From: an uncultured Clostridia bacterium
Lineage (GTDB): Bacteria > Bacillota > Clostridia > Christensenellales > Borkfalkiaceae
Length of the DNA: 36,427 bases
Direction: 5' to 3'
Assembly: GCA_947625605.1 (NCBI GenBank)
Contig: CANQOY010000013.1
Span: forward strand, 1 to 36,427
Below are positions 7,615 to 17,520 of this stretch, piece by piece (position 1 is the first letter of the stretch; every line of letters begins with the position of its first letter). Position numbers and translations under genes: made by a program. The notes beneath the pieces are model-generated. The model saw nothing but the letters and a program-made list of their open reading frames with translations. It was not told where the DNA came from and made no database searches.

Positions 7615-10600
7615 CTATGCCTGCGGAGCCGAGGCGGCGGCGACATACGTCTCAAATTGCGCTTCAAACTGGGTGAGATTGATCTGTACGAATAGCCACA
7701 TCTCATCCTTTGGATCATTCCCCCAAATATCATTAATGATCGTCGTCGGGAGTACTTTAGAGATCAGGAAGCGGAGCCCATGGATCCTGTCGAGCAAGGC
7801 TGCCTTTGCATCGTTATCCAACGAAAGGGTGGAGAAGTCCCACGTCACCGTACCGTCTTCCTCGGAGACGATCCTGCAGCTCCCGATCTTGCCGTAGAGT
7901 TCTGCGACCGCCTGTCCGATGACCTCTTTGAGCGCGGTCCCGAGCGCCGTTTCCACGGTGCCTTTGATGAGTTCTCTGTTCAGTGCGGTGACCTCGGTGA
8001 CTTTTTGGTTGAGTTCCGCCAGTGCGGTCTCCTCGAGCCACGTCGGTTTCAGCGCTGTAATCCACGTTTTGCCCCACGGCATCTTGGTCGCATCGTTGTC
8101 CATATTGGAAGTCCAATAATCGTAGCCGACGTACAGACCGTAGGCAGAGGAGAGCTTCCTCATCGTGCTAAGAAGGCTTTCGATCGACGCCTCGCTGCCC
8201 TGTGCGGTCAGCGCTTCGAGCTCGCTCTTGATCTCTTTATAGGAATCTATGACATCGTCAAGGTTCTTTTGGTAGACCTCGGCGACGAAATCCTGATACC
8301 CCGTGTCTTCCTTCAATGTGTCGGGAAGTTTGTCGTAGGTGGGCTTGAATTCGTTGACGATCTTAGTGAGCGCAGCGGTCCGGCCCGTGCGGTCGGTCGC
8401 CTGTTCGAACTCCGTCTTTGCTTGGGCGATGTCCGCCGTCAGCTTGCTCGCGACCGCCGACTCATGCGCCGCGCGCTTGGTGAGATAGGTCTCGACGGTC
8501 TCTGCGCCGACTGCGGTTTCGAGGGTCTCGTTCCCATCGATCGCGGGAACGGTGATGCCCGAAACAGTTGCGGACTTTTCGTAGAGGGCGTTGAGCGCGT
8601 CCCATTCGGTCTCGGGAGAATTTTCCGTGATGGTTGCAACCGTCGATTTGAATGTCTCCGCGCGGTCATAATAGAGCTGTGCGGTGAGAAGGAGAACGGT
8701 GGTCTTTTCGCCGACGACCTTTTCCGCGAGATAGGAGCTGTTGTACATGAGCGTCTTCACCGCGGGATCCTGTCCGTTGATCTCGTCTTGCAGGGCGGTG
8801 ACCCTTTGGACGTATTGCTCGTAACCGCTTTCGGTGACGTCCATGCCGTCGATGAGCTCCTGCAATTTATCGGCATATTCCGCCGCCTTTTCGTTCGCCG
8901 CTTTGAGTTCCTTGACTGCCTTGTCTGCGGCAAGGTCCGCCGATCCCATTTCCGTGAGCTCTTCCTTGTAGGTGAGGGTGAGCCCGATGAAGCGCACGGA
9001 CTCGGATCCCTCCGCGGTGGCGGGGATCGCATACACCGCGAGGTCGAACATGGGCTTGCCCTCCGCGGTCACGCCGAGGAAGAATTCCACGCCCGTGATC
9101 TCTCCGCCGAGCCAACCGCGGAGCATCGAGTCTGCAAACATGGCCGTAAATTCATCGAGATTTGCCGTCGCCTGTTGGACCAACGAATCGACAAGACCGT
9201 TGTATGCGGCGGCGATCGCCTGAACGGCGGGTTCGCCGAGCGCGATCGTTATGCCGTTTTCCGCCACCGTGAATGTGAGGGGAAGGAGGCTGAAAGCGGG
9301 CTGTTGCGGCGTTTCGGCGGGATCGGACGGATCCGTCTCCTCCGCGGCTACCGCCGTCTGCGTGCCGATGAGCGTTTTGAGATCGACCTCGGTCATGCCC
9401 ATGGGAAGATCGTTCGCGTCATTGAATGCAAGCGTGAGCATGCCGTCGCCCGTGTAATAGACGTCGAGGCTCGAAAGCTTCTCGTTGATGTAAGGAGGCA
9501 GATCGGGGATCATGCCGCCGACCGCTCCGATCAGCGACAAGAGCGCGGAAGCGGGCGTGAGATCGAGATGCAGGTGCGCCTTTGCGAGCGCGAAGTAGTC
9601 GCCCGACCACACGGCCGTCGGATCGAGACGGAAATCGAGATCGCCCGTAAACGGCTGTGCGATCGCGCCGCCGATGAGCTGCGTTTCGAGGGAGATGCCG
9701 ATCTTCTCGCCCTTGGTGACGTTTTCCCCGGGATCGGCTTTGACGGAGACGGCGATCCCGGTGAGCTCATCGAGCCCCGCGGCGTCGGCCGTGAGCTCGG
9801 TGAAGGTGAAGCCGAGCAGCGAGCGGAGGTAGCCGTGCGTATCGCCGAGTTTTTCTTCGAGCGCGGCGATCATCCCGCGGTATGCGCTGTTGAGCGCTTC
9901 GAGCGCATGGGGTTGGAGCGAGACCGTGTAGCCCGTCTGCGTCCGTTCGATCGAAAGGGTCTGCCCGATTGCGGTTTGGAGATCTTCGAGGGAGAAGTCT
10001 CCGCCCTGCGCAAAGAGCGCGCCGAGATCGGCAGCGTAAGTGAAGAGGTAGCGGTCGACGTTCTCCGCCCTGTCGTTGAGTATGAAGAGGAGCATGCCGC
10101 CGCCCTCGTAGCGCACCGTCAGGGTGTTCGCGAGCTGCGAGATGAGGGGCATGTCCGCGAGTGAGAGGTCAAAACGCAGCGAGAACGCGTCCGCGAGGTC
10201 GCCCTGTTCGAGCGCTTCCTGACGGAGCCGCAGCGAGAGATTCCCCGCAAGGTCTACCGCCGTGGCGGAGATGCCGAGGCCGAGGGAGACGGGAAGGGAG
10301 ACCGCATTGCGGTCGTCGAGCGCGTTGCCGAAAGCGGCCGTGAGCTGCATGAGGGGATCGGTCTCCTCCTGCGGCGGGACGGGCTCGGAGGGCGCGGAGC
10401 CGATCTTTTGGTTGAACTCCTCCACGCTCGGGATGGCGACCTGCCCGTTGACTTCGGAATAGGTGGATTCGAGCGTCTGTTCCACGTTCATGCCGAGCAC
10501 CTTCTTCGCGCTGTAAGAGCAGGTGGAGGTGTAGGAGACGGGCGTCCAGTCCCGCTTGATCGTGAGGCGGATATCCACGTCCGAGAAGGAGGGAAGGTTG

Positions 10601-11241
10601 TCGAGCGAGCCGTACGCCTTCGTCTGCAAGCGGATGCCCGTGGTGGCGGACTCCGTCGCCGTGCCGCTTTGGTAGGATTCGTCCCCCGCAAGGCGGAAGA
10701 AGTAGGTGAGGGTATCGCCCTCCTCGCTTTCGAGCCTTGCATAGCGGAGCGTCTTTTCGTTGACGATATACCCGCCGAGCGTGACCTCGTCCGCCGTGAA
10801 GCCGTACACCTTCTTATATTCTTCCTTGTCGGCGGCCTTCATTTCTCCGTCGAAGCTGTTGCGGTAGACGACCTTTCCGTTTTTGGAGAAGGATTGGTGC
10901 TTCATCTTCACGAGGGCGGAGCTCGACGAAGCCTCGTTGAGGAAGTCCTCCCCGTTCTTATAAGTGACGTTGTGGATATTCTGTCTGTATCCCGCAAGGC
11001 TGGCGACCGCGGCGCCCTCCGCCGTGATCTTGTAGCTCTGCAATTCGCTCTGCTTCTGCAAGAAGGCATAGATGACGTTTTCGGGCGACAGTTCGTCTGG
11101 CGCCTTGTTGGTGACGAGCGTCGAGGATTGCCCGCTTTCCGAGAGGGGCGCCTCGGGGCTGCCGCAGGCGGCGACGCCCGCCGTCACGGAGAGCGCGAGG
11201 GCTCCCGAAAGCAATAAGATCGCGATTCTGGATGGTTTCAT
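7615..11241 (-). CDS. Large putative lipoprotein with internal repeats, function unknown
   Basis: The 1208-residue product begins with a lipoprotein signal whose lipobox (VAAC) places the acylated Cys at residue 26. Residues about 50-275 form a beta-rich domain rich in Tyr, Ser and Lys, broadly like LolA/LppX-type folds. Two related modules follow. Module A (about 305-525) contains LTVRYEGGGMLLFILND and YTVSLQPHALEAL. Module B (about 530-760) contains LDVYYTGDGMLTLAFND and ITIALGEPAVQAI. The C-terminal third (about 760-1208) is mostly helical with coiled-coil character (KAVKELKAANEKAAEYADKLQEL) and a Trp-rich end. The ATG at 11241 was chosen because the signal peptide starts there and GGAGGA lies just upstream. 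No enzyme motif is visible. A surface scaffold or envelope-associated protein is an inference only. Confidence 0.85.
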   Translation of the reverse strand: MKPSRIAILLLSGALALSVTAGVAACGSPEAPLSESGQSSTLVTNKAPDELSPENVIYAFLQKQSELQSYKITAEGAAVASLAGYRQNIHNVTYKNGEDFLNEASSSSALVKMKHQSFSKNGKVVYRNSFDGEMKAADKEEYKKVYGFTADEVTLGGYIVNEKTLRYARLESEEGDTLTYFFRLAGDESYQSGTATESATTGIRLQTKAYGSLDNLPSFSDVDIRLTIKRDWTPVSYTSTCSYSAKKVLGMNVEQTLESTYSEVNGQVAIPSVEEFNQKIGSAPSEPVPPQEETDPLMQLTAAFGNALDDRNAVSLPVSLGLGISATAVDLAGNLSLRLRQEALEQGDLADAFSLRFDLSLADMPLISQLANTLTVRYEGGGMLLFILNDRAENVDRYLFTYAADLGALFAQGGDFSLEDLQTAIGQTLSIERTQTGYTVSLQPHALEALNSAYRGMIAALEEKLGDTHGYLRSLLGFTFTELTADAAGLDELTGIAVSVKADPGENVTKGEKIGISLETQLIGGAIAQPFTGDLDFRLDPTAVWSGDYFALAKAHLHLDLTPASALLSLIGAVGGMIPDLPPYINEKLSSLDVYYTGDGMLTLAFNDANDLPMGMTEVDLKTLIGTQTAVAAEETDPSDPAETPQQPAFSLLPLTFTVAENGITIALGEPAVQAIAAAYNGLVDSLVQQATANLDEFTAMFADSMLRGWLGGEITGVEFFLGVTAEGKPMFDLAVYAIPATAEGSESVRFIGLTLTYKEELTEMGSADLAADKAVKELKAANEKAAEYADKLQELIDGMDVTESGYEQYVQRVTALQDEINGQDPAVKTLMYNSSYLAEKVVGEKTTVLLLTAQLYYDRAETFKSTVATITENSPETEWDALNALYEKSATVSGITVPAIDGNETLETAVGAETVETYLTKRAAHESAVASKLTADIAQAKTEFEQATDRTGRTAALTKIVNEFKPTYDKLPDTLKEDTGYQDFVAEVYQKNLDDVIDSYKEIKSELEALTAQGSEASIESLLSTMRKLSSAYGLYVGYDYWTSNMDNDATKMPWGKTWITALKPTWLEETALAELNQKVTEVTALNRELIKGTVETALGTALKEVIGQAVAELYGKIGSCRIVSEEDGTVTWDFSTLSLDNDAKAALLDRIHGLRFLISKVLPTTIINDIWGNDPKDEMWLFVQINLTQFEAQFETYVAAASAPQA

Positions 11242-11253
11242 GTTTCCTCCATA

Positions 11254-11282
11254 TGTACAGGAACTTCCGCATGCGCTGTACA
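11254..11282. promoter_or_regulatory. Nested inverted repeats in the 5' untranslated region of the large lipoprotein
   Basis: TGTACAG (11254-11260) and CTGTACA (11276-11282) are perfect arms 15 bases apart. They enclose the palindrome CGCATGCG (11268-11275). A further palindrome, TTGCATGCAA, lies at 11290-11299 near the predicted transcription start. These could be a regulator site or an RNA hairpin. Confidence 0.4.
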
Positions 11283-11304
11283 TGGTTTTTTGCATGCAAC
11301 AAGC

Positions 11305-11333
11305 AGTATACACCGTGTGTGACATTTTGTCAA
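11305..11333 (-). promoter_or_regulatory. Promoter of the large lipoprotein gene
   Basis: Read on the minus strand: TTGACA (11333-11328), 17 bases, TATACT (11310-11305). The -35 box is covered by an inverted repeat. Confidence 0.85.
11320..11333. promoter_or_regulatory. Candidate operator 1
   Basis: TGACA-TTT-TGTCA with a trailing A, overlapping the -35 box of the minus-strand promoter. It shares TTTTGTCAA with the site at 11458-11471. Confidence 0.45.
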
Positions 11334-11537: not shown

Positions 11538-12872
11538 ATGAACGAAACCTTTTTCAGCGACAACGTATTGCTCCGTTCCCGCACGGCGGCGGAGCTCTAC
11601 CGCGGCGTCCGCGATCTTCCCATCGTGGACTATCATTCCCATCTCAACGAGCGCGAGATCGCGGAGGGCAGGACCTTCTCCACGATTACGGAGCTCTGGC
11701 TCGGATCCGATCACTATAAGTGGCGCGCGATGCGCGCCTGCGGCATTGAGGAGAGAAGGATCACGGGGGACGCGGGGGACTACGAAAAGTTTCTCGCATA
11801 CGCCTCGGTCATGCCCATGCTCTGCGGAAATCCGCTCTACTATTGGACGCACATGGAGCTCAAAGCCCTCTTCGGGATCCGCCTTCCGCTCAACGCGCAG
11901 ACAGCGCCCGAGATCTATGCGCGCGCAAACGAGGCGCTCGGGCAGCTCTCCGTGCGCCGCCTTCTCGAAAAATTCCGCGTGGAGTACATCGCCACGACGG
12001 ACGACCCCGCAAGCCCGCTCTCGCATCACGGGCAGTACGGCGGGGTGCGCGTCTGCCCGACCTTCCGCGCCGACAGGGCCCTGCGTGCGGACGGGGATTG
12101 CCTCGAAGCGCTCGGGGCGGCGTGCGGAAAGCGCATCGAGACGCTTGCGGATCTTCGGGACGCGCTCGAACAGAGGCTGCGCTTCTTCCTCTCGAAGGGG
12201 TGCGCGCTCGCGGACGTCAGCGTGGAGGAAACGCCCCTCGTCGGCGTCACCGAAGCGGAGGCCGAGGCGCTCTTCTCCCGCCGCGGAGAGCTCGAAGGCC
12301 TTGCGGCGCGCCGCCTCTTCTCGTACGGCTTGGCCTTCCTCGCGGAGCTCTGCCGCAAGTACGGGATCGTGCTGCAAATGCACATCGGCGCACTGCGCAA
12401 CGTCAACCGTCCCGCCTATCTCGCCCTCGGCGCAGACGCGGGCTACGACGTCATGCACGGCAGCGTGGATACCGACGGGATCGCGGCCTTTTTGGGGCGG
12501 CTGCATGCGGAGGGAAAGCTCCCGAAGGCCATTCTCTACACCTTGGAGCCGGGCTCTCTGCCCGCACTGTGCACGGTCGCAGGCTCCTTCCCGGACGTGC
12601 GCGTGGGCGCGGCATGGTGGTTCAACGATACCTTGCAGGGCATCCGCAGGCATTTGGAGACCGTCTCGGAATACTCCGTGCTCGGCACTTCGACGGGCAT
12701 GCTCACGGACAGCCGTTCCTTTGCGGGCTATTGCCGTTTCGACTTCTTCCGCCGCATCCTCGCGGACGCCGTGGCGGAGAAAGTGGACGCGGGCGAATAC
12801 GATCGAGGCGGCGCGGCGCAGCTTCTCTATGACATCTGCTACGCCAACCCGAAAAAATTCATGAAGATATGA
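11538..12872 (+). CDS. uxaC: Glucuronate (uronate) isomerase
   Basis: The enzyme isomerises D-glucuronate to D-fructuronate, and usually D-galacturonate to D-tagaturonate, as the first cytoplasmic step of hexuronate use. The 444 residues are close to the family norm. Visible marks are the amidohydrolase-like metal motif DYHSHL (His 33 and His 35), the QMHIGALRN segment, and VGAAWWFNDTLQGIRRHLETVSEY with STGMLTDSRSF near the C-terminus, all characteristic of UxaC. ATG 11538 follows a modest GCAGAGG site. It is the first gene of a five-gene run. The next start is 10 bases after its stop. Confidence 0.94.
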   Translation: MNETFFSDNVLLRSRTAAELYRGVRDLPIVDYHSHLNEREIAEGRTFSTITELWLGSDHYKWRAMRACGIEERRITGDAGDYEKFLAYASVMPMLCGNPLYYWTHMELKALFGIRLPLNAQTAPEIYARANEALGQLSVRRLLEKFRVEYIATTDDPASPLSHHGQYGGVRVCPTFRADRALRADGDCLEALGAACGKRIETLADLRDALEQRLRFFLSKGCALADVSVEETPLVGVTEAEAEALFSRRGELEGLAARRLFSYGLAFLAELCRKYGIVLQMHIGALRNVNRPAYLALGADAGYDVMHGSVDTDGIAAFLGRLHAEGKLPKAILYTLEPGSLPALCTVAGSFPDVRVGAAWWFNDTLQGIRRHLETVSEYSVLGTSTGMLTDSRSFAGYCRFDFFRRILADAVAEKVDAGEYDRGGAAQLLYDICYANPKKFMKI

Positions 12873-12882
12873 AGGAGGAGAG

Positions 12883-13716
12883 ATGAAGTTACCGTTCCAT
12901 GTGGATCTGAGCTCCGCCGTGGCTGTCGTTACGGGTGCGGGCGGCGTGCTCATGAGCGAATTTGCCAAGGCGCTTGCGGCCTGCGGCGCGAGGGTCGCGC
13001 TGCTCGATATCAACTTCGAGGCCGCCAAAAAATTTGCCGACGAGATCGGCGACCGCGCGATCGCCGTCCGCTGCAACTGCCTCGACCGCGAGAGCATTTT
13101 GCAGGCCAAGGAGACGGTGGGGGAGGCGTTCGGGCGCGTCAACCTCCTCATCAACGGCGCGGGCGGCAACAACGCAAGGGCCACCTGCGACAACGAGACC
13201 ATGGCGCCCGATCTCCCCGCGTCCGTCAAGAGCTTCTTCGACCTCGAAGAATCGGGGCTGAAATTCGTTTTCGACCTCAACATCACCTCGGCCTTCCTCG
13301 TCACGCAGGTCTTTGCGAAGGACATGGTGGAGGGCGGTGGCAACATCATCAACATTTCCTCGATGAACGCCTTCCGTCCGCTCACCAAGATCCCCGCGTA
13401 CAGCGCGGCCAAGGCGGGTGTTTCCAACTTCACGCAGTGGCTCGCCGTGCACTTCGCACCCTGCCACATCCGCGCGAACGCGATCGCTCCCGGCTTCTTC
13501 GTCACCAACCAGAACCGCGATCTCCTCTACGGGCCGGACGGCGCGCCCACGGCGCGCACGGGCAAGATCCTCGCCGCAACGCCGCAGAAGCGGTTCGGCG
13601 AAGTCTCCGACCTCATCGGGACCCTGCTCTGGCTCGCGAGCGACGAGGCGAGCGGCTTCGTCACGGGGTCGGTCATCGCGGTAGACGGCGGATTTGCCGC
13701 ATACAGCGGCGTATAA
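12883..13716 (+). CDS. SDR-family fructuronate reductase (D-mannonate oxidoreductase type)
   Basis: This short-chain dehydrogenase of 277 residues is predicted to reduce D-fructuronate to D-mannonate with NAD(P)H. The Rossmann motif reads TGAGGVLM (17-24), the NAG-type motif NGAGGN (91-96), and the catalytic set is Ser160, Tyr173 and Lys177 (PAYSAAKAG). The C-terminus VTGSVIAVDGGF is standard for the superfamily. The long insertion between about residues 98 and 125 is typical of the mannonate/fructuronate group rather than of small SDRs. An AGGAGGAG site precedes the start. The neighbour uxaC supports the substrate. SDR substrate calls from sequence alone remain uncertain. Confidence 0.85.
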   Translation: MKLPFHVDLSSAVAVVTGAGGVLMSEFAKALAACGARVALLDINFEAAKKFADEIGDRAIAVRCNCLDRESILQAKETVGEAFGRVNLLINGAGGNNARATCDNETMAPDLPASVKSFFDLEESGLKFVFDLNITSAFLVTQVFAKDMVEGGGNIINISSMNAFRPLTKIPAYSAAKAGVSNFTQWLAVHFAPCHIRANAIAPGFFVTNQNRDLLYGPDGAPTARTGKILAATPQKRFGEVSDLIGTLLWLASDEASGFVTGSVIAVDGGFAAYSGV

Positions 13717-13740
13717 AAAAGCTGTAAACAGGAGGCTGTC

Positions 13741-14799
13741 ATGAAGAAATATGCGATCGTCGCTCCCACGAGCATGGGGGTCAGGATCACGCCTGAAAAC
13801 AGGCAACCCGTGGGCATGGGTGGCCTGTTTCGCATGCAGGCGACGAGTGCGGAGAGCAATGTCCTCTCCATTTCCGCGGGGCTCGGGCTGCCCGTAAAGG
13901 CGCTCACCGCATTTGTGGAGGGGAGCCCCGTCGCGCAGTTCATCAAGGGGGATCTTCGCCGCAGGGGCATCGACTTCGAGGCGAAAGAGGTCCCGCAAGG
14001 CGGGCCGTGGGGATACCGCCACCAGTTCAACATTGCGGATAGCGGCTACGGCCTGCGGGCGCCCCGCGTCGCGAACGACCGCGCGGGGGAGGTCGGCAGG
14101 ACGCTCTCTGCCGCCGACTTCGACCTCAGCCGCATCTTCGGGGAAGAGGGCGCGGACGTCCTGCACCTCTCGGGGCTCATCGCGGCGCTCTCGCCGACGA
14201 CGGGGGAACTCTGCCTGCAACTTGCGCGCGCGGCGAAGCGGTACGGTGCCAAGGTCTGCTTCGACCTCAACTACCGCGCCTCTTTCTGGAAGGGACGCGA
14301 GGAGGAGCTCTCCAAGCTCTTCGGGGAGATTGCCTCGCTCACGGATATCCTCGTCGGGAACGAGGAGGACTTCCAGCTCTGCCTCGGCGTGCGCGGGCCG
14401 GAGACGGGCGGGCGCGACCTCGCGGAAAAGATCGGCGGATTCCAAAAGATGGTCGAATGCGTCAAGCGCGCATATCCCAACGCCCACACTTTCGCCACGA
14501 CGCTCCGTCAGGTCGTCTCGGCGAACGAGCACCTCTGGGGCGCCGTCGCCCTCTTCGGAGAGGAGTGGACGGTCATCGAGCCCCGCCCCATCCCCGTTCT
14601 CGATCGGATCGGCGGCGGCGACGGCTTCGTGGGAGGGCTGCTCTATGCCATGGAAAAGGGATATTCCCCCGCGGACTGCGTCCGCTTCGGCTGGGCGTGC
14701 GGCGCGTTCGTCACGACGCTTCTCGACGACTTCGGCCTTCCCGCAGACGAGAAGCAGATCTGGGATATTTGGGCGGGAAACGCCCGCGTACAGCGTTAA
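13741..14799 (+). CDS. PfkB-family sugar-acid kinase (KdgK-like; gluconate is a candidate substrate)
   Basis: This ribokinase-superfamily protein of 352 residues phosphorylates a sugar or sugar acid using ATP. The C-terminal signature is DRIGGGDGFVGGLLYAM, with catalytic Asp at about residue 294. DLNYRASFW near residue 175 is a motif also seen in 2-keto-3-deoxygluconate kinases, so automatic annotation would call it KdgK. Its operon, however, contains 6-phosphogluconate dehydrogenase and a LarA-family protein, while mannonate dehydratase and KDPG aldolase are not present. That makes D-gluconate to 6-phosphogluconate a plausible activity. The start is supported by AGGAGG about 6 bases upstream. 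Confidence 0.85.
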   Translation: MKKYAIVAPTSMGVRITPENRQPVGMGGLFRMQATSAESNVLSISAGLGLPVKALTAFVEGSPVAQFIKGDLRRRGIDFEAKEVPQGGPWGYRHQFNIADSGYGLRAPRVANDRAGEVGRTLSAADFDLSRIFGEEGADVLHLSGLIAALSPTTGELCLQLARAAKRYGAKVCFDLNYRASFWKGREEELSKLFGEIASLTDILVGNEEDFQLCLGVRGPETGGRDLAEKIGGFQKMVECVKRAYPNAHTFATTLRQVVSANEHLWGAVALFGEEWTVIEPRPIPVLDRIGGGDGFVGGLLYAMEKGYSPADCVRFGWACGAFVTTLLDDFGLPADEKQIWDIWAGNARVQR

Positions 14800-14809
14800 G
14801 GAGGGTACC

Positions 14810-16252
14810 ATGTCTGCGGATATCGGTATGATCGGGCTCGCCGTCATGGGGAGCAATCTCGTAAAAAACATGCTCGGGAAGGGCTACACCGTCGCCGTCT
14901 ATAACCGCGAACGGGAGATGACCGAGCACTTCATGGAGCAAAACAGGGGCGAAAAAGTGATCGCGACCTATTCCTATGCGGAGCTCGTAAAGAGCGTTGC
15001 CCGTCCGCGCAAGATCATGATGATGATCCGTGCGGGCGCGCCCGTGGATATGGTGCTCGAACAGCTCTTGCCCCTCCTCGAAGAGGGCGATATCGTCATC
15101 GACGGCGGCAATTCGCACTTCCCCGATACCATGCGCAGAACGGCGCTCCTCGAAAGCCGCGGCTTACGGTTCATCGGCATGGGCGTCTCGGGCGGCGAGG
15201 AGGGCGCGCTCCGCGGACCCTCTCTCATGCCGGGCGGCTCTCCCTCCGCATGGGAGGAGGTGAGGCCCATCCTCACTTCCATTGCCGCGAAGGCGGACGG
15301 CGTCCCCTGCTGCGAATGGGTGGGGGAAAACGGCGCGGGGCACTTCGTCAAGATGGTGCATAACGGCATCGAGTACGGCGACATGCAGCTCATTTCGGAG
15401 TGCTACCAGCTCATGCGCGACCACATGGGGCTCTCCGCGGACGAGATGAGCGCCGTGTTCGGCGAATGGCAGACGACGGAACTCGACAGCTACCTCATCG
15501 GGATCACGGCCGCCATCCTCGCGAAAAAGGACGGCGACGGCGCCCCGCTCGTGGACCGCATCCTCGACGCGGCGGGGCAGAAGGGCACGGGGAAGTGGAC
15601 GGGCATCTCCTCAATGGAGGAGGGCGTGCCGCTCACGCTCATCTGCGAGGCCGTGCATGCGCGCTGCCTCTCCGCGATGAAGGAGGAGCGCGTCGCCGCA
15701 TCGAGGGTATACGGCCGCAAGATCGCACCCTTTACGGGGGATAGAAAGGCCTTCCTCGAAGACATGCGCCGCGCACTCTACTGCGCCAAGATCGTCTCCT
15801 ACGCGCAGGGCTACACCCTCATGCGGGCGGCGGCAAAGACGTACGGTTGGAACTTGAACTACGGCGGCATCGCGCTCATGTGGCGGGGCGGCTGCATCAT
15901 CCGCTCCCGCTTCCTCGGCAAGATCAAGGAGGCGTACGGGAAAAATCCCGCGCTCGAAAACCTCCTGCTCGACCCCTATTTTCAATCTACTCTGGAAAAA
16001 TATCAGGAAAGTTGGAGGCGGGTCGCGGCGGCTTCCATCGCGTGCGGGGTACCCATGCCCGCAATGACCTCCGCACTTTGCTATTTTGACGGGTACACGA
16101 CGGAGCGCCTCCCTGCCAATTTGTTGCAGGCCCAGCGGGACTATTTCGGCGCGCACACCTATGAGCGCACGGACGCGCCCCGCGGCAAATTCTTCCATAC
16201 GAATTGGACGGGCGAAGGCGGCGACACCGTCTCCACGACTTACGAGGTGTAA
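14810..16252 (+). CDS. gnd: 6-phosphogluconate dehydrogenase, decarboxylating
   Basis: The enzyme oxidises 6-phosphogluconate to ribulose-5-phosphate and CO2 with reduction of NAD(P). The 480-residue product is of the long homodimeric type. It shows GLAVMGSNLVKNM at the N-terminus, VIDGGNSHFPDT, the substrate signature MGVSGGEEGALRGPSLMPGG, then GHFVKMVHNGIEYGDMQL with the catalytic Lys, KGTGKW, and the C-terminal tail AQRDYFGAHTYERTD and FHTNW. The reading frame is open far upstream, but AAGGAGG just before the ATG at 14810 and the family N-terminus fix the start. Being co-transcribed with hexuronate genes is unusual and is the main clue to the pathway proposed for this operon. Confidence 0.96.
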   Translation: MSADIGMIGLAVMGSNLVKNMLGKGYTVAVYNREREMTEHFMEQNRGEKVIATYSYAELVKSVARPRKIMMMIRAGAPVDMVLEQLLPLLEEGDIVIDGGNSHFPDTMRRTALLESRGLRFIGMGVSGGEEGALRGPSLMPGGSPSAWEEVRPILTSIAAKADGVPCCEWVGENGAGHFVKMVHNGIEYGDMQLISECYQLMRDHMGLSADEMSAVFGEWQTTELDSYLIGITAAILAKKDGDGAPLVDRILDAAGQKGTGKWTGISSMEEGVPLTLICEAVHARCLSAMKEERVAASRVYGRKIAPFTGDRKAFLEDMRRALYCAKIVSYAQGYTLMRAAAKTYGWNLNYGGIALMWRGGCIIRSRFLGKIKEAYGKNPALENLLLDPYFQSTLEKYQESWRRVAAASIACGVPMPAMTSALCYFDGYTTERLPANLLQAQRDYFGAHTYERTDAPRGKFFHTNWTGEGGDTVSTTYEV

Positions 16253-16254
16253 CG

Positions 16255-17520
16255 ATGGACCTGAAAGCGGTTGCTACGGGAGAGACCCTTTCGCGGGCGG
16301 AGATCGAAGAGACGCTGCGGCGCTCCCTCGCGGGGAGAACGCTTAAAAAGGTGCTCATCGTCCCGCCCGACTTCACCCGCTTCCACTCCAACGCGGGGCT
16401 GATCACCAACATATATTACCACCTCCTCAAAGACACGGCCGAGGTGGATATCATGCCCGCGCTCGGCACGCACGCCCCCATGACGCGGGAGGAGTGCGCG
16501 GAGATGTTCGGCGACATTCCCTTTGAGAGGTTTTTCGAACACCGCTGGCGGGAGGACGTTGTAAATATCGGCACGGTGCCCGCGGATTTTCTCCGCGAGG
16601 TCTCGGAGGGGACGTGGAACGAGCCCGTCGATTGCGAGGTCAACAAGATCCTCTTCCAAGGGTACGACCTCATTCTCTCCGTCGGGCAGGTCGTCCCGCA
16701 TGAGGTCGTCGGCATGAGCAACCACTCCAAAAACATTTTGGTGGGGCTCGGCGGGAGCAAATTCATCAACGCCTCGCACATGGTGGGCGCGCTCTATGGC
16801 TTGGAGCGGATGATGGGGCGGGACAACACCGCCGTGCGCAAGCTCTTCGACTACTGCGTCGAGCACTTCCTGCGGGAGCTTCCCATCCTCTGGGTGCTCA
16901 CCGTGACGACCGCGCCCGCGGGCGTCATCCACACGCACGGGCTCTTCATCGGCGAGGGAAGAAAACCGCTCGAAGACGCGATCGCCCTCTCCCAGCAGAA
17001 GAACCTCGACCTGCTCGAAAAACCCATCAAAAAGTGCGTCGTCTACCTCACGCCCAAGGAGTTCAAGAGCACTTGGCTGGGCAACAAGTCGGTGTACCGC
17101 ACCCGCATGGCGATCGCGGACGGCGGGGAGCTGTTGGTCCTCGCGCCCGGGGTCGAAAAGTTCGGCGAGGACCCCATTCAGGATCGGCTCATCCGCAAAT
17201 ACGGCTACGTCGGCCGCGCGCGCATTTTGGAGCTCTTCCGCGAAAATGAGGACCTGAGGGCGAACATGGGTACCGCGGCGCACCTCATCCACGGCTCGTC
17301 GGACGGGAGATTTCGCATCGTCTATGCGGTGAAGAAGCTCACGCGTGCGGAGATCGAGGGCGTGAATTTTATCTATGCGGATTACGACGAGGCCGCCGCG
17401 CGGTACGACCCCGAGACGCTGCGGCCGGGGCCGAACACCCTGCCGGACGGGGAGGAGATCTTCTTCATTCCCAATCCCGCTCTGGGGCTCTGGATGTCGA
17501 AAGACAGGATCGGAAAATAA
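16255..17520 (+). CDS. LarA-superfamily nickel-pincer racemase/epimerase (candidate mannonate/gluconate 2-epimerase)
   Basis: The 421-residue protein belongs to the lactate racemase (LarA, DUF2088) superfamily, which uses a nickel-pincer nucleotide to invert an alpha-hydroxy acid. The catalytic set can be traced by spacing: Asp39 and Arg42 in PPDFTRF, His73 in GTHAPMT, His149 in VPHEVVG, Lys159 ten residues later, and His175 sixteen further on. This matches R75, H108, H174, K184 and H200 of Lactobacillus LarA. The start is two bases after the gnd stop, with its GAGGTG site inside gnd, so translation is coupled. Some family members are known to epimerise gluconate and mannonate. The operon makes that the favoured role, but it is inferred. 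No cofactor genes (larB, larC, larE) are in the window. Confidence 0.88.
   Translation: MDLKAVATGETLSRAEIEETLRRSLAGRTLKKVLIVPPDFTRFHSNAGLITNIYYHLLKDTAEVDIMPALGTHAPMTREECAEMFGDIPFERFFEHRWREDVVNIGTVPADFLREVSEGTWNEPVDCEVNKILFQGYDLILSVGQVVPHEVVGMSNHSKNILVGLGGSKFINASHMVGALYGLERMMGRDNTAVRKLFDYCVEHFLRELPILWVLTVTTAPAGVIHTHGLFIGEGRKPLEDAIALSQQKNLDLLEKPIKKCVVYLTPKEFKSTWLGNKSVYRTRMAIADGGELLVLAPGVEKFGEDPIQDRLIRKYGYVGRARILELFRENEDLRANMGTAAHLIHGSSDGRFRIVYAVKKLTRAEIEGVNFIYADYDEAAARYDPETLRPGPNTLPDGEEIFFIPNPALGLWMSKDRIGK

Follow-up and report, generated by a model that had tools for sequence, protein, structure and literature searches.

Gene Content of the Operon

The stretch of DNA analyzed here (hereafter the window) comprises 36,427 nucleotides from an uncultured Clostridia bacterium, contig CANQOY010000013.1 (C13), and carries a five-gene operon by which glucuronate, a sugar acid of plants, probably enters the pentose phosphate pathway with the help of a nickel enzyme, a homolog of LarA. 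The source genome, G000, amounts to 1.43 Mb in 37 contigs and is 97.05% complete. The operon reads uxaC, a short-chain dehydrogenase/reductase (SDR) gene, pfkB, gnd, and larA, every open reading frame (ORF) starting with ATG and ending in a single terminal stop, with successive intergenic gaps of 10, 24, 10, and 2 bases (Table 1). An earlier first-pass annotation had described this run with its coordinates, its gaps and the pincer residues of LarA, all of which proved exact, and the gene identities that it proposed agree with the Pfam and NCBIfam matches. An alternative TTG start for larA at 16204, offered by the ORF lister, was rejected as a mechanical extension into gnd. No transporter or regulator was seen within the operon in the window; in relatives, an AraC-type regulator adjoins larA, and an MFS_2 transporter adjoins uxaC in one of them (L009).

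Table 1. Genes of the operon, with coordinates in the window, and LarA-like loci of the single-contig genome G181.
Feature	Position	Strand	Length	Matches
uxaC, glucuronate isomerase	11538-12872	+	444 aa	PF02614 441 bits; NF002794 431 bits (cut-off 387)
SDR, D-mannonate oxidoreductase (fructuronate reductase) type	12883-13716	+	277 aa	NF006132 388 bits (cut-off 281)
pfkB, sugar-acid kinase, predicted gluconate kinase	13741-14799	+	352 aa	PF00294 64 bits
gnd, decarboxylating 6-phosphogluconate dehydrogenase	14810-16252	+	480 aa	TIGR00873 745 bits (cut-off 427)
larA homolog group 18, predicted nickel-pincer D-mannonate/D-gluconate 2-epimerase	16255-17520	+	421 aa	PF09861 58 bits; NF052594 625 bits (cut-off 500)
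LarA-like loci of G181 (L107-L110, L117-L120)				

The usual route of hexuronate breakdown proceeds through mannonate dehydratase (uxuA) and 2-keto-3-deoxy-6-phosphogluconate (KDPG) aldolase (eda), neither of which the first-pass annotation had seen. A search of the whole G000 genome bore this out, with no match to PF03786 (uxuA) or PF01081 (eda), and a UxuA/Eda pathway is therefore not recognized in this organism. Among ten genomes, uxuA was found in one (G057) and eda in four (G140, G145, G055, and G057); both were missing from G027 and G066 as well as from G000, and uxuA was also not found in G140 and G145.

Residues, Fold and Selection of LarA

The window LarA scores above the curated cut-off of NF052594, the model for group 18 of the superfamily, which is labeled “nickel-dependent putative hexonate epimerase.” Its residues R42, H73, H149, K159, and H175 align with R75, H108, H174, K184, and H200 of LarA (reference numbering taken from PMC7583248), and thus include the pincer-binding K159 and H175 and both catalytic histidines, H73 and H149. 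E150, V151, and W274 reproduce the signature of the GntE proteins, a loop E-V/S and a helix W. That group 18 has the loop E-V and helix W combination of assayed gluconate 2-epimerases strengthens the first-pass reading of this protein as a C2 epimerase. An AlphaFold model built with 13 sequences has a mean pLDDT (a per-residue confidence score) of 90.5, and its top matches in the PDB are 4nar of Thermotoga maritima (TM-score 0.83), followed by structures of lactate racemase, that is, of LarA itself.

We compared 49 distinct genomes carrying a group-18 larA (carriers), a number reached once two duplicates had been removed. The pincer, catalytic and signature residues D39, R42, H73, H149, E150, K159, H175, W274, and K278 are invariant in all 49, including the 35 in which LarC was not found; position 151 is Val in 45, Ile in three and Leu in one. 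The ratio of nonsynonymous to synonymous substitution (dN/dS) of larA, from simple Nei-Gojobori counts with some pairs near saturation, was 0.04–0.19 in nine of nine LarC-negative pairs vs. 0.05–0.21 in three LarC-positive pairs. The gene is under purifying selection, LarC-negative lineages included.

Distribution and Gene Neighborhood

Group-18 larA is found above cut-off in 6 of 151 genomes of the family and 34 of 398 genomes of the phylum sample, and a contig scan among named genomes turned up 12 loci, spread over Clostridia, Bacteroidales, and spirochaetes. The named relatives nearest in LarA (three, at 79–80% identity) are metagenome-assembled genomes (MAGs) of uncultured Clostridia, all from one sample labeled Lapin-021. 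The hosts are gut bacteria that probably use plant uronates.

Genes were counted as neighbors if they lay within 6 kb of larA on the same strand, the SDR at 45% identity or more; the counts are lower bounds, several stretches ending at a contig end. By this measure gnd accompanies larA in 27 of the 49 carriers, the SDR in 24, an FGGY kinase in 16, and the PfkB clade of the window in nine. Less frequent are UxaE (9/49), a KDPG-aldolase-like gene (9/49) and uxaC (5/49). The three UxaE proteins that were scanned were confirmed as PF16257 (622–644 bits); UxaE would feed galacturonate into the same route. Since these genes turn up next to group-18 larA again and again across many genera, their association is not due to chance, and the expectation that the gene set of the window would be found in other genomes held.

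Several loci show other arrangements. In three genomes, one of Bacillota type and two spirochaetes, a related HAD-like protein directly adjoins group-18 larA (L067, 7128-8012; L017, 9085-9966; L019, 6274-7170), with a possible bearing on substrate or cofactor handling. Two different larA homologs stand in tandem in G178 (L086, 7945-10573), the second 28% identical to the window LarA. The most distant group-18 LarA (L018, 4202-9628, genome G161) has thiolase and 3-hydroxyacyl-CoA dehydrogenase genes as neighbors, and its genome encodes LarB, LarC, and LarE; this copy probably has another function, and group 18 may not be functionally uniform. In the window itself, a 1236-aa protein without a Pfam match is encoded upstream of the operon on the opposite strand (7615-11325, −).

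Genes for the Nickel-Pincer Cofactor

The nickel-pincer nucleotide (NPN) is, to our knowledge, an uncommon organometallic cofactor for which a single biosynthetic pathway has been described, consisting of LarB, LarE, and LarC. None of larB, larC, and larE was found in G000 or in five related carriers, so the expected supply by all three proteins in the same genome, which is not definitional for group 18, is missing there. Overall LarC was found in 14 of the 49 carriers and not in the other 35. By sample, this corresponds to 0 of 10 genomes of the genus and family (six of them with larA), 1 of 12 named carriers, and 13 of 34 phylum carriers. Linkage of larA to gnd is commoner in LarC-negative than in LarC-positive carriers (24/35 vs. 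3/14, p = 0.004, uncorrected for relatedness). LarB was above cut-off in 11 of 34 phylum carriers, 0 of 5 family carriers, and 1 of 12 named carriers, and LarE in one of the 20 genomes to which that search was confined (18 carrier handles, 16 distinct carriers). Two genomes, G178 and G424, have LarC with no LarB above cut-off. Mapping the presence of LarC onto the LarA tree requires seven changes, six of them forced by well-supported branches. As a side result of the LarB search, G000 showed not even a weak match of PurE type to the model, though most genomes searched do, which hints at purine auxotrophy.

Technical explanations for these absences were considered and rejected. T. maritima and Corynebacterium glutamicum, used as positive controls, both match LarC in the same searches. 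Assembly gaps do not account for the missing LarB and LarC: among the carriers of known completeness, the 34 from the phylum are at least 90% complete and the five from the family 97–98%, and the 35 carriers without LarC include G181, a single contig of 2.88 Mb that is 100% complete. That genome has four LarA-like matches, no LarC match and no LarB above cut-off; three of these LarA-like proteins were checked and all retain the pincer Lys and His, with Arg at the K278 position in one, and the fourth was not caught by the motif filter. Nor are the weak LarE matches a disguised LarE, since in six of six frames scanned (L027, L029, L030, L031, L033, and L034) TtcA was the best model (194–216 bits, cut-off 272) and LarE scored 33–39 bits. 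No LarB-, LarC- or LarE-like family was recognized among the gene clusters beside LarC-negative larA, in a clustering of 18 further LarA stretches together with the group-18 loci, where clusters were judged by sequence starts and scanned in part.

Genomes with other LarA homologs behave in part the same way. In a control of 40 of 142 such genomes, drawn from the stronger matches, some of which may belong to DUF2088 groups without NPN binding, 13 have no LarC, and 12 of these 13 also have no LarB (G443 has it). The absence of LarC is thus commoner in group 18 (21/34 vs. 13/40, Fisher p = 0.019, uncorrected for relatedness), and given those 13 genomes the cofactor puzzle is not special to it. 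Among six of the 222 genomes without LarA, LarC was present in five.

The first-pass annotation had taken the cell to make its own pincer cofactor and had named the absence of larB, larC, and larE among the findings that would refute its proposal. That part of the claim is not supported. We do not regard the missing genes as a refutation of the epimerase itself, given a pincer site that does not vary among the 49 carriers and the purifying selection on larA in lineages where LarC was not found; they indicate an unexplained cofactor supply more than they do an inactive enzyme. A LarA without NPN that is no epimerase, being either an apo-protein relic or the holder of another cofactor for another reaction, would fit the lack of LarC in 35 of 49 carriers, of LarB in G000, and of LarE above cut-off in all but one of the 20 genomes. 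It would not account for pincer Lys and His and both catalytic His being unchanged in 35 of 35 LarC-negative carriers, for the dN/dS values of the nine LarC-negative pairs, or for the operon context kept across LarC-negative genera, and we consider it unlikely.

More probably, a working LarA acquires its cofactor from outside the cell or through an undescribed route. Since G000 has none of the three known genes, substitution of one enzyme alone is a less likely explanation, and the invariant nickel site disfavors a very different cofactor. NPN sharing, a second way of making NPN, or a substitute cofactor would each be compatible with these data. In a literature search of limited scope we met no published case of a LarA without LarB, LarC, and LarE.

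The Kinase of the Operon

No NCBIfam model comes near its cut-off on the window PfkB. The protein scores best with the model for the kinase portion of a KDPG aldolase/kinase fusion (157 bits, cut-off 700), models for 2-keto-3-deoxygluconate (KDG) kinase reach 33–86 bits against cut-offs of 400–440, so that the protein does not qualify as KdgK, and as a PF00294 protein it lacks homology to the gluconokinases of TIGR01314 and TIGR01313. The operon copies form a clade of their own, 62–81% identical to the window protein and 27–32% identical to the aldolase-linked KDG kinases of the congeners G140 and G145; the N-terminal and lid segments differ between the two sets, the lid (residues 89–119) being a low-confidence part of the structure model, and the D-x-N-Y-R segment is kept. 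Two congeners carry PfkB genes in tandem, the second copy (L009, 7430-8491; L100, 5452-6537) being about 50% identical to that of the window.

The PfkB clade occupies the kinase position in nine of the 49 carriers, FGGY kinases in 16, and both together in none. Six operon FGGY proteins were scanned, and all have the gluconokinase TIGR01314 as their best NCBIfam model, at 214–304 bits and below its cut-off of 648.55. In G000 the FGGY matches are limited to GlpK (617 bits, cut-off 498) and one protein resembling rhamnulokinase (465 bits, cut-off 528), and there is no match to the P-loop GntK. Since PfkB and FGGY never share the slot, the window PfkB is, from its sequence and context, probably a gluconate kinase of unfamiliar ancestry. 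A literature search of limited scope, with sources in part available as excerpts, turned up no PfkB-family gluconate kinase.

The same genes, with identical start and end points, could also act in the reverse order: PfkB would be a mannonate kinase, and group-18 LarA would invert C2 of mannonate-6-phosphate to give 6-phosphogluconate. Group 18 is not among the 13 LarA homologs tested in the available text of PMC7583248, and the substrate segment of the PfkB clade is unlike that of known KDG kinases, both of which leave room for this order. However, the GntE1 and GntE2 proteins assayed there act on unphosphorylated mannonate (PMC7583248, same text), the alternative kinases of the slot score best as gluconokinases, as fits a kinase that follows the epimerase, and the 49-carrier comparison yields just three invariant basic positions (R195, R282, and H343) beyond those that correspond to pincer or catalytic residues, with no phosphate site placed in LarA. 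We judge phosphorylation before epimerization to be quite improbable. Even less of a case can be made for PfkB as a KDG kinase in a fragment of the usual uronate pathway: the aldolase/kinase fusion is its best model and KDG kinases are among its nearest PDB relatives, but the fusion model gives 364 and 370 bits to the aldolase-linked congener kinases vs. 157–178 to the operon copies and 103 to the tandem second copy, the lid segment differs, uxuA and eda are missing as described above, and gnd would be left without a role, so that this reading is very hard to credit.

Proposed Pathway

UxaC routes yield mannonate and altronate, and only C2 inversion of mannonate gives gluconate, the precursor of the Gnd substrate. 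In the pathway that we propose, UxaC would convert glucuronate to fructuronate, which the SDR would reduce to D-mannonate. Group-18 LarA would then invert C2 through nickel-pincer hidden-redox chemistry, yielding D-gluconate, the predicted substrate of PfkB, whose product, 6-phosphogluconate, would be decarboxylated by Gnd to ribulose-5-phosphate. Epimerization would thus precede phosphorylation, and the holoenzyme would contain NPN, or a very close relative of it, obtained from outside the cell or through a maturation route yet to be described. Linkage of gnd in 27 of the 49 carriers and the lack of uxuA and eda in G000 support this route. Overall, we assign a probability of roughly 0.7 to a working hexuronate-to-pentose-phosphate operon that bypasses the dehydratase and KDPG aldolase, with an epimerase using NPN not made by the known route. 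The first-pass annotation had also supposed that Gnd restores the NADH consumed by the reductase, which the data do not support, as Gnd scores in the NADP-type family TIGR00873. The N-R after its second strand is presumably NADP-type, and the Asp at the corresponding place in the SDR we take to be NAD-type.

Besides the missing larB, larC, and larE, several observations weigh against this pathway. In 10 of the 49 carriers the SDR, gnd, PfkB, FGGY, and UxaE are all absent within 6 kb, some of these stretches stopping at a contig end. A KDPG-aldolase-like gene adjoins larA in nine carriers, one case being confirmed as PF01081, and eight of the nine have no gnd nearby, which indicates that part of group 18 leads to another end. 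The test for mutual exclusion in the kinase slot (Fisher p = 0.022) is uncorrected for relatedness, and three of the nine PfkB carriers (G551, G154, and G155) have FGGY proteins elsewhere that score 250–300 bits to TIGR01314, on a par with the operon-linked ones.

An intact, selected LarA in many genomes in which the known pathway was not found, one of them a single contig, raises the question of whether NPN is shared between microbes or synthesized in a second way. We would give even odds to the broader proposition that many LarA enzymes of anaerobes work without LarB, LarC, and LarE, through the NPN of their neighbors or a second NPN pathway, here together with a new clade of PfkB gluconate kinases. 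An unassayed LarA group gains a substrate prediction, and the PfkB clade a predicted role as gluconate kinase.

Comparison With Known Systems

The first-pass proposal that mannonate enters the pentose phosphate pathway is supported by gene context, and it is not new: in the available text of PMC7583248, which cites Rodionova 2012, such entry via GntE2 of T. maritima is called probable. The operon is a variant of this proposed route. LarA groups 19 and 20 interconvert mannonate and gluconate and have the loop and helix signature in common with group 18, for which that text hypothesizes a hexonate substrate solely from the signature residues (PMC7583248, in part). The label LarAH18 does not occur in the available portion of a 2024 follow-up (PMC11770544).

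GntE2 (LarAH20) is the closest parallel, being a LarA-superfamily C2 epimerase found with hexuronate genes that takes mannonate to gluconate for entry into the pentose phosphate pathway (PMC7583248, excerpts), and the window LarA model is closest to the T. maritima structure 4nar. The window protein differs in belonging to group 18 rather than 20, its operon in having a kinase of the PfkB clade and an SDR as reductase, and G000 in lacking a LarC match, unlike T. maritima. GntE1 (LarAH19) of C. glutamicum has the same loop and helix signature and is a gluconate 2-epimerase in vitro (PMC7583248, excerpts); it forms a separate phylogenetic group, has a high KM for mannonate, and comes from an organism with LarC.

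The Ashwell-type glucuronate pathway (UxaC, UxuB, UxuA, KdgK, and Eda; PMC6353982, partial text) has its first two reactions in common with the route proposed here. In contrast, no UxuA or Eda was found in G000, and the predicted products are ribulose-5-phosphate and CO2 instead of pyruvate and glyceraldehyde-3-phosphate. The FGGY and P-loop gluconokinases catalyze the reaction predicted for the window kinase, and FGGY proteins resembling gluconokinase fill the same slot in 16 of the 49 carriers, whereas the window kinase belongs to the PfkB fold family and is homologous to neither.

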